From assembly GCA_030827315.1 (NCBI GenBank), contig JAURER010000004.1, forward strand, positions 1 to 64,000: DNA of 64,000 nucleotides, written 5' to 3'. Numbering within the stretch: position 1 is the stretch's first letter; every line of letters begins with the position of its first letter. Shown here in pieces: positions 7,023 to 14,393 of the stretch. Source of the stretch: Gemmatimonadota bacterium (GTDB taxonomy: Bacteria > Gemmatimonadota > Gemmatimonadetes > Longimicrobiales > Gaopeijiaceae). A program made the translations under genes and the position numbers. A model generated the notes under the pieces. That model was given only the letters and a program-made list of their open reading frames with translations, did not search any database and was not told where the DNA came from.

Positions 7023-7307
7023 CTATGCCAGGGCCGCCGTGATCACCTCCACCGAGGGTGCTCCGTCGGCCCGGCAGGCCATGGCCACGGCCCCGTGACC
7101 TTCACCGGTGACGTCGCGACCCTCCACCAGGACGGTAGGAGATCCGTGCCGGCGGAACTGTTGCGGCGTCGACTCGGACATCAGGTCCCACTCGGACCAC
7201 GTCCATCCGAAACCCAGCGCCTCGACGGCCGTCCTGAGGTTCTCTCTGGCGAGGATGGCGTGGGGACACCCCTCGAAGTACACGAGATCGATCCGAGGGG
7301 CTCTCAT
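7023..7307 (-). CDS. Thioredoxin-fold protein of the mer-like module
   Basis: A 94-aa single-domain protein. It opens with a beta strand and a redox-type turn, LVYFEGCPHAILA (Cys14), and has the cis-Pro loop GSPTVLVEG, the pattern of small thioredoxin-like proteins annotated next to mercury or alkylmercury genes. There is one Cys in the active turn (CPHA) instead of CxxC. Its ATG overlaps the stop of the merP-like gene (ATGA), and it has no good ribosome-binding site of its own. Its translation should therefore depend on ribosomes that have read through the UGA of that gene. A role in reducing or accepting metal from the partner is inference. Confidence 0.75.
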   Translation of the reverse strand: MRAPRIDLVYFEGCPHAILARENLRTAVEALGFGWTWSEWDLMSESTPQQFRRHGSPTVLVEGRDVTGEGHGAVAMACRADGAPSVEVITAALA

Positions 7308-7687
7308 CGGGACGGACTTTCAACCCGTGGGGTCGCCGAGAACTCCGTCAGCCTCTCCAACTCCGCTATGATCTCCTCAACGGACGTGCGCGTGGTGTCG
7401 AAGGTGACGAACCCCTCGGCACGGCCGTACGAGAAGGTCGCACCGGTCACGCCGTCGATCCGCTCTACGGCCACCCGGGCCGCCGTGGCACATGCGTCTC
7501 AGGTCATGCCCGTCACTTCGAGCGCGATCGTGGCATACGGCCCTTGCGGCTCGGCCTGCCCTGCGGACATCGCGGCGTGCTTCGAGTCGGCATGCTTCGA
7601 AGACGCCTCGTCATCGTGCCCAGGGATCTGGAGCAGGACCCCTCCCCCGATGAGCACCACGACGGCCGCCCACTGTTTCCAACCCAT
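7304..7687 (-). CDS. merP: MerP-like metal-binding protein containing selenocysteine (in-frame UGA)
   Basis: A 127-aa periplasmic heavy-metal-associated (HMA) protein if the UGA at 7499-7501 is read as Sec. Residues 1-23 are a signal/anchor segment, followed by a His-containing linker (HDDEASSKHADSKHAAM). The HMA domain starts at ATIALEVTGMT, continues U63-DAC66, and goes on as ATAARVAVERIDGVTGA, FVTFDTTRTSVEEII and AELERL. MerP and related chaperones have GMTCxxC here, so Sec replaces exactly the first metal-binding Cys. The frame after UGA stays open for 64 codons with normal HMA sequence and ends in an ATGA overlap with the next gene. A good Shine-Dalgarno (GGAAGGG) precedes the ATG 15 nt after merT. 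Binding of Hg(II) is inferred from the family and from neighbouring merT. Confidence 0.85.
7461..7492 (-). promoter_or_regulatory. Candidate bacterial SECIS element
   Basis: Directly 3' of the UGA the mRNA can fold into a hairpin. ACGGC pairs with GCCGU, closing a 10-nt loop that begins with GG, 18 nt after the UGA. The stem extends outward with two mismatches. An alternative stem is GCCAC / GUGGC with a loop also starting GG. A G-starting apical loop at this distance matches the loose bSECIS consensus. Folding was done by eye; no energy was computed. Confidence 0.6.
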
Positions 7688-7702: not shown

Positions 7703-8047
7703 TCAGAAGAGGAGTGTCTGCCAGCGTGGAAAGGTAGCCAATGACACGGCGAGCACCGTGCCGACCCAGAGGACGATCTGCATCCGCCGCCGGGTCCGAG
7801 GGTCGGCACACGGCTTGCCCGGCGCACAAGCGGCTCTCTCTTCCCGGTCCAGGATCACGAACCCCGACACCAGGAAGACGGCCGTGGCTCCGAGCAGATA
7901 CGGTCGCAACGGCTCGAAGGCCGAAAGCCCCGCGCTGGACACGCCGAGCGTCACCGCCACCGTGGGCCCGCCGCAACAAACGGCGGAGCCCAAGGCGGCA
8001 AGGACCCCGCCTGCACTGGGCAATACGACTCTCGTGGTGTCCCTCAT
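7703..8047 (-). CDS. merT: MerT-type mercuric ion transporter
   Basis: A 114-aa inner-membrane protein with three hydrophobic segments. The first carries the vicinal pair Cys24-Cys25 in GSAVCCGGPTV, the Hg(II)-binding signature of MerT. A second cytoplasmic pair Cys74/Cys80 lies in CAPGKPC between helices 2 and 3, and SAFEPLRPYLLG is the conserved MerT loop. The start at 8047 (ATG after GAGG with 5 nt spacing) fits the normal MerT length; the frame is open further upstream but that part is not MerT-like. In classical mer operons MerT takes Hg(II) from periplasmic MerP and moves it inward to MerA. Here merP follows 15 nt downstream, but merA and merR are not in the window. Confidence 0.88.
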   Translation of the reverse strand: MRDTTRVVLPSAGGVLAALGSAVCCGGPTVAVTLGVSSAGLSAFEPLRPYLLGATAVFLVSGFVILDREERAACAPGKPCADPRTRRRMQIVLWVGTVLAVSLATFPRWQTLLF

Positions 8048-8221
8048 ATCGACCTCGCTCCCGGAGATGTCTCGACCGCCCACGCGACACCGGGCCTCGT
8101 TCGTGCGCGCGTGACGCCCAACGCTAGGCGTGCTGACCGAGGGCGTCGAGATGCACGCCCCGGCCCCCATACGTTGAAATGATGGCAGACTACACCGAGT
8201 TTACGCCCTCCGTGAAGTTTT

Positions 8222-12989: not shown

Positions 12990-14393
12990 TCATCCGGCCC
13001 GCCGCCAGGCCTCGAGCACGCACTGCACCAGCGCCTCGTCCTGACCGGGCAGAACGGTTCTCACATCCAGGCGGAGTCCGTCGTCGACGATGCGGCCGAT
13101 CACGGGCAGATCTCCCTGTCGGAGCGCTGCGGCGAGTGCGTCCGCTCCCGCGGAGTGGCGCATCTCGACGCCCCAGGACGCGAGCTCGACGCCCGGGTAG
13201 GTACCGCCCCCGACCGCGCCAGCGGTCGCGACGACCTCGGCGCGGATGCCCGCGTGCTCCAGGGCCTCCGCCAGCGCGCGGGCCCGCGACTCCAGCGCCT
13301 CCTTGTCGGCCGAGAGCATGGCAAGCGTCGGTACCGTCCGTACGACCCGGGCCGGGTCTCCATAGAGCCGGAGCGTCGCCTCGAGCCCCGCCAGCGTGAC
13401 CTTGTCCACGCGGAGGGCCCTGCAGAGCGGGTTCTTCCGCATGCGAGCCACGTGCGCACCCCGCCCGAGGATCACCCCCGCCTGGGTGGCGCCCATCAGC
13501 TTGTCGCCCGACACGACCACGATGTCCGAGCCCGCCCGAAGCGAATCGACGGCGCGTGGCTCCTCCGGAAGCCCGAGGGCACCCGCGTCGATCAGGAGGC
13601 CCGAGCCCAGGTCGTGCACGAGCGGCAGGCCGTGCGTCCGGCACAGAGCCGACAGCTCGCCGACCGACGCCTCTTCGGTGAACCCGGTGATGCGGAAGTT
13701 GGAGCGGTGCACCTTCAGGACGGCGGCGACCTCTCCGGCTTCCACCACTTCCACGTAATCGCCCACGCGCGTGCGGTTCGTGCTCCCCACCTCGACGAGT
13801 CGGGCCCCCGCTCGCTCGAGCATCTCGGGAATGCGGAATCCGCCGCCGATCTCGACCAGCTCCCCGCGAGAGACCGCGACCCCACGCCCCTGACCGAAGG
13901 TGTTGAGCGCGAGCACGAGCGCCGCGGCCGCATTGTTGACCACCAGAGCGTCCTCCGCGCCCGTGAGGTCGGTGAGCAGCGAGACGCAGTGCACGTAGCG
14001 CGACCCGCGCACGCCCGAATCCAGATCGAATTCGAGGTTCGTGTACCGGCCGGCCACGTCGCGCATGGCACGGACGGCGTCCTCGGCCAACGGCGCGCGG
14101 CCGAGATTCGTGTGCAGGACCACGCCGGTCGCGTTGATCACGTGGCGCAGGCTCGGAACTTCGGCGTGCTCGAGTGCGCGCCGCGCGCGGTCCAGGTAGA
14201 TGGCCGGATCGGTCATGTCCTCATGCGGCTCCGGGCCGCCGCCGCTCCCCGAAAGGCCGGCGCGCACCGCGTCGACCGCGGCGCGCACCGCGTGGACCAC
14301 GCGAGCCCGGCCGAAGCGTGCGACGACGTCCGCCGCCGCCTCGGCGGCCACGATCGAGTCGACCGAGGGGATGAGACTTCGCGGATCGCTCAC
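12990..14393 (-). CDS. selA: L-seryl-tRNA(Sec) selenium transferase (selenocysteine synthase)
   Basis: A 467-aa PLP enzyme converting Ser-tRNA(Sec) to Sec-tRNA(Sec) with selenophosphate. Family signatures are clear: the SelA N-terminal helical part (LIPSVDSIV), INATGVVLHTNLGRAPL, LEFDLDSGVRGSR, NNAAAALVLALNT, LVHDLGSGLLID, and the PLP-lysine segment SGDKLMGATQAG with Lys298. The start is GTG, overlapping the stop of the preceding lipoprotein gene by 4 nt (GTGA), so selA is translated as the third gene of a valS-lipoprotein-selA unit. selB, selC and selD are not in the window. The gene shows the host can make selenocysteine, which supports the UGA reading of merP. Confidence 0.96.
   Translation of the reverse strand: MSDPRSLIPSVDSIVAAEAAADVVARFGRARVVHAVRAAVDAVRAGLSGSGGGPEPHEDMTDPAIYLDRARRALEHAEVPSLRHVINATGVVLHTNLGRAPLAEDAVRAMRDVAGRYTNLEFDLDSGVRGSRYVHCVSLLTDLTGAEDALVVNNAAAALVLALNTFGQGRGVAVSRGELVEIGGGFRIPEMLERAGARLVEVGSTNRTRVGDYVEVVEAGEVAAVLKVHRSNFRITGFTEEASVGELSALCRTHGLPLVHDLGSGLLIDAGALGLPEEPRAVDSLRAGSDIVVVSGDKLMGATQAGVILGRGAHVARMRKNPLCRALRVDKVTLAGLEATLRLYGDPARVVRTVPTLAMLSADKEALESRARALAEALEHAGIRAEVVATAGAVGGGTYPGVELASWGVEMRHSAGADALAAALRQGDLPVIGRIVDDGLRLDVRTVLPGQDEALVQCVLEAWRRAG

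Follow-up and report, generated by a model that had tools for sequence, protein, structure and literature searches.

Mercury owes much of its toxicity to its affinity for selenols, which, compared with thiols, have a lower pKa and a higher affinity for Hg. The bacterium described here seems to place a selenol in the very site that is meant to hold Hg(II). A selenoprotein named “Mercuric transport protein MerP” was listed in the GOS survey, with two sequences from one sample and no GOS homologue in a Cys form (Zhang and Gladyshev 2008, PMC2398784, Table 2), which answers a question that the original prediction for this locus had left open, namely, whether selenocysteine (Sec)-containing MerP proteins had already appeared in metagenome surveys. 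Reviews of 2022 (PMC9312934) and 2026 include a MerT-type “putative mercuric transport protein” and a UxxU metal-binding protein (NF041115), and the 2022 review only also includes a MerB-like selenoprotein. The word MerP is absent from the text of both reviews, and MerP is not mentioned in the deep-Sep paper. In the openly licensed literature, we found no description of a Sec-containing MerP in a mer operon, of one in Gemmatimonadota, or of its gene setting or evolution. Here, we analyzed 64,000 nucleotides of a Gemmatimonadota genome (contig JAURER010000004.1, assembly GCA_030827315.1; this whole stretch is called the window) and computed for a merP-like gene its Sec codon, bSECIS-type hairpin, Sec machinery, HMA domain, merT/merA/merR neighborhood, and Sec/Cys exchange.

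A MerP-like protein with one in-frame TGA

The frame at 7304–7687 on the minus strand encodes 127 amino acids: a hydrophobic N-terminal segment (anchor or signal) is followed by a hydrophilic linker and a single HMA domain, whose metal motif is GMT-Sec-D-A-Cys. Its translation from 7687 to 7304 is MGWKQWAAVVVLIGGGVLLQIPGHDDEASSKHADSKHAAMSAGQAEPQGPYATIALEVTGMT-U63-DACATAARVAVERIDGVTGATFSYGRAEGFVTFDTTRTSVEEIIAELERLTEFSATPRVESPSR-stop, with one internal TGA only (7499–7501, minus strand), read as selenocysteine at residue 63. The HMA match (Pfam PF00403, E 2.5e-8) spans this codon, covering residues 57–112 of the read-through product, and together with the alignment of homologues it bears out the prediction that the UGA coincides exactly with the first Cys position in GMTCxxC. 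The predicted overlap with the next gene is likewise present, the merP stop codon (TGA, 7304–7306) sharing an ATGA with the following ATG (7305–7307). By all computational tests available, the frame appears to be a selenoprotein gene.

We searched 154 genomes from the order and 395 from the phylum for homologues interrupted by exactly one internal TGA. Each homologue was inspected, and the TGA always lay at GMT-U-x-x-C, in 21 genes from 19 genomes including the window's own. The UGA forms are 37%–71% identical to the window's protein and nearly all come from Gemmatimonadota. The TGA is not a chance event, because 20 further homologues share the aligned codon. The UGA genes align with Cys in one genome (G065) and in MerP/HMA relatives, so that homologues running through the UGA, which the original prediction had named as a test, exist in both UGA and Cys forms. 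A script scan of three distant TGA-bearing matches (L037, L039, and L043) gave no convincing Sec site. One Sec-MerP, with 71% identity to the window's protein, comes from a record that is titled “Terriglobia bacterium” (Acidobacteriota; OX638355.1), but it branches among Gemmatimonadota, which may reflect transfer or misnaming. In a plasmid collection, the MerP matches were all of the ordinary kind and <47% identical across the HMA domain, and the viral contigs yielded no more than two HMA proteins, both distant; neither set gave a sign of a mobile Sec-MerP.

An HMA fold is predicted for the protein (pLDDT about 96), and in Foldseek comparisons it matches MerP structures closely (TMt 0.93 to 1osd and 0.80 to 1afi). 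It superposes equally well on copper chaperones, with solved-structure matches that include CopZ and Cu ATPases; therefore, genomic context decides the identity. The GMTxxxC site is present, with Sec in place of the first Cys. The score against the MerP model TIGR02052 (41.8 bits) is under the cut-off of 92.55, and the protein is thus classed as no more than MerP-like, on the strength of its domain and its context, and not as a TIGR02052 equivalog. The best NCBIfam match is NF041115 (66.5 bits, below the cut-off of 95).

Gene neighborhood and the metal carried

Directly upstream of the gene, on the same strand, lies a merT-like membrane transporter gene (7703–8170; Pfam PF02411, E 4.2e-18; NCBIfam MerT), whose product has Cys-Cys-Gly-Gly in the first helix, a second pair C-x5-C, and a conserved region starting near residue 42. 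The same arrangement recurs in nearly all relatives examined. Sec-merP directly adjoins a gene for a MerA that passes the curated cut-off in six genomes (G101, which is of the same genus, G056, G089, G043, G047, and G148). The regulators in the operons checked have MerR as their best model and fall slightly short of its cut-off (139–144 vs. 150.85 bits). In G065, merR, merT, the Cys form of merP, and merA stand within about 8 kb. Because relatives hold Sec-MerP in merR-merT-merP-merA operons, the protein is a putative mer-type metal carrier and its family is, by position, MerP; the adjoining merT in the window, with merR and merA in relatives, thus supports the MerP identification originally made. 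One of the six genomes, G089, has a second Sec-containing HMA protein (GMD-U-SVC; L066:6207-6446, minus strand) just upstream of merR-merT-merP(Sec)-merA, and also a MerA-like flavoprotein with one in-frame TGA (G089:C26:57853-59205; 389 bits, below cut-off).

The gene that follows merP in the window (7023–7307, minus strand) is small and resembles the “DF family (seleno)protein,” in a Cys form (FEGCPH). It scores 43.7 bits against NF049942, below the cut-off of 70, and has no significant Pfam family, with weak thioredoxin-like scores only. Genes of this type also follow merP in G061, G036, G104, a second copy in G056, and the Terriglobia-named record, and they precede merT in G090 and G060; no MerA over cut-off was found at any of these sites. 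In different operons, Sec-merP seems to be partnered by either the DF gene or merA, and two genomes, G047 and G056, carry one operon of each type. The DF match in the G047 operon, as in G098, covers a short N-terminal piece only.

No MerA was found in the window's genome, which is 98% complete and in which the best match is a dihydrolipoyl dehydrogenase (584 bits vs. a cut-off of 409), and no merR stands beside the operon, so that mercury import here would be without a known sink. The absence of MerA is one of the observations that would fit a different role, in which the selenoprotein is real but its operon in this lineage, merT-merP(Sec)-DF, transports a different soft metal (e.g., Cu, Ag, or Cd) or serves in redox, not in mercury resistance. 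In this clade, DF takes merA's position next to merP, which points the same way, as does the binding of Cu(I) by HMA domains, in line with the copper proteins among the structure matches. We nevertheless consider this reading rather unlikely, given the adjoining merT, the orthology with merP genes from full mer operons, one of them in the same genus, and a MerB-like Sec gene in the genome. This last gene, a lyase of family PF03243 scoring over the Pfam cut-off (G000:C18:7793-8158, minus strand, locus L101), contains a single in-frame TGA (GFT-U). Seven related copies have a TGA at this position too, and in most copies it is followed by a hairpin of the CUUCC-GGUC-GGAAG type. The selenoprotein type itself has already been listed (PMC9312934); its presence in this genome supports a role in mercury handling.

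Decoding of the TGA

The genome has all of selA, selB, selC, and selD. The selA gene lies within the window, as predicted (12990–14393, minus strand; TIGR00474, 518.9 bits, cut-off 267.9). Also in the genome are selB (345 bits) and a tRNA-Sec with a UCA anticodon, the two genes whose presence the original prediction had singled out for checking, as well as selD, which is itself a selenoprotein gene with Sec at GAG-U-ACK (SHGAG-U-ACKL; G000:C99:22175-23098, minus strand, locus L078). Among UGA-form genomes of the order, 13 of 14 have selB over cut-off; the exception, G060, is only 81% complete.

Downstream from the TGA, synonymous codons are frozen mainly at codons +6 to +11. Given the same residue, codon identity is 0.86–0.97 at codons +6, +7, +9, +10, and +11, against 0.35–0.39 expected, and the best six-codon stretch begins at +6, with a score matched by none of 300 synonymous shuffles. 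These codons form a hairpin, GGCC-CGKGU-GGCC, that is 95% paired across 20 sequences (28%–70% in slid controls) and in which two pairs are compensated (U-A for C-G in G090 and A-U for G-C in G047). In the window it occupies 7467–7483 on the minus strand, with stem positions 19–24/30–35 from the UGA, a 5-nt loop (CGGGU), and a gap of 21 nt between UGA and loop. The geometry agrees with bSECIS constraints as given in PMC13188914 (a loop of 5 nt with G then G/U from its second position, a stem of 4–6 bp, and a spacing of 21 nt). Fold energies were computed on stretches of 45–60 nt and do not come from the bSECISearch program; for the window's own 55 nt, the energy is no better than that of shuffles (z 0.55), and the hairpin therefore rests on comparison. 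Rfam had no meaningful match in the surroundings of the gene. A longer alternative stem (columns 15–23/28–36) was rejected, with pairing and covariation no higher than in shuffles.

The nearest Cys orthologue, that of G065, belongs to a genome that is 99% complete and in which selB was not found. On the tree it is nested inside the Sec clade, and starred branches separate it from the other Cys proteins; at least two Sec/Cys label changes are needed. With 63 columns and many forks left open, the tree safely supports no more than this coarse statement. The simplest reading is that the G065 lineage would have lost Sec decoding and returned to Cys. Recoding of TGA to another amino acid throughout the genome, or plain read-through, would account for the open frame only, and we regard it as very improbable: TGA terminates other genes here, merT for example, and merP itself; the sel machinery is complete; the Cys counterpart sits in a lineage without selB; and the hairpin past the TGA is conserved.

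For every one of 14 homologues compared, dN is clearly lower than dS, ahead of the TGA (dN 0.22–0.67) as well as past it (0.17–0.55), and purifying selection, as estimated from these alignments, is about equal on the two sides. A MerP pseudogene, produced by a nonsense mutation or by a sequencing error for TGC or TGT and suggested by nothing more than a lone TGA in an otherwise ordinary frame, is refuted by these comparative data, with dN/dS unchanged past the codon and the same TGA recurring in homologues from independent assemblies that share as little as about 40% identity.

Proposed mechanism

Very probably, then, the gene encodes a MerP-type carrier in which SelB and the hairpin place Sec at residue 63; its cargo, passed on to MerT, would be a soft metal and most likely Hg(II). 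The protein would be a periplasmic metal carrier, probably anchored in the membrane by its N-terminus, which would keep the domain on the periplasmic side. SelB would insert selenocysteine at the UGA, guided by a hairpin beginning about 15–17 nt past that codon. The Sec63/Cys66 pair would then hold the metal as the two Cys of MerP do, and MerT would receive the metal at its Cys pair and import it. MerA from the same operon would go on to reduce it in relatives; the window's genome is without MerA, and there the metal may instead be dealt with by the operon's DF protein or by general thiol chemistry.

On chemical grounds, a Sec/Cys pair might bind Hg(II) more tightly or be tunable by redox. The properties of the selenol would favor capture at low Hg, and tight binding by Sec could also slow release. 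A bolder proposal, which we hold to be doubtful, is a selenium-based pathway independent of MerA, in which MerT, Sec-MerP, DF, and the Sec-containing MerB would see to both the capture and the disposal of mercury with no Hg(0) being formed; sequestration by the thiols of DF is one conceivable route. Operons of the same type hold matched Sec and Cys orthologues, so what Sec contributes at a purely metal-binding, noncatalytic site can be tested directly. Further, standard gene callers truncate at the UGA, and merP has thus probably been missed in such genomes.

Comparison with known systems

The window's protein shares with MerP (TIGR02052; 1afi and 1osd) the HMA fold, the GMTxxxC site, a MerT partner, and, in relatives, a MerA partner, and differs from it in having Sec for the first Cys and an anchor-like N-terminus. 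The UxxU_metal_bind family (NF041115, a “putative mercuric reductase” in reviews) also has Sec in the HMA metal motif, but it is a short protein with UxxU, whereas the protein described here has UxxC and an N-terminal anchor. The MerT/CopZ fusion-like heavy metal transport selenoprotein (NF045683) likewise combines mer-type transport with Sec, although as a single fusion polypeptide; the window instead encodes MerT and MerP as two proteins, with Cys in MerT. The MerB-like selenoprotein is a Sec protein of the mercury pathway found in this same genome, but it is a lyase and is encoded elsewhere. The MerP entry of the GOS survey is named as a Sec-containing MerP too; its table gives no motif or operon, so the two can be likened by entry only. 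With that listing and the related NCBI models of HMA and MerT selenoproteins, a Sec-containing MerP is not new as an idea. What this locus adds is the organism, the operon, the bSECIS, and the apparent loss of Sec to Cys, and the evidence for such a protein is much stronger than the GOS listing gives.
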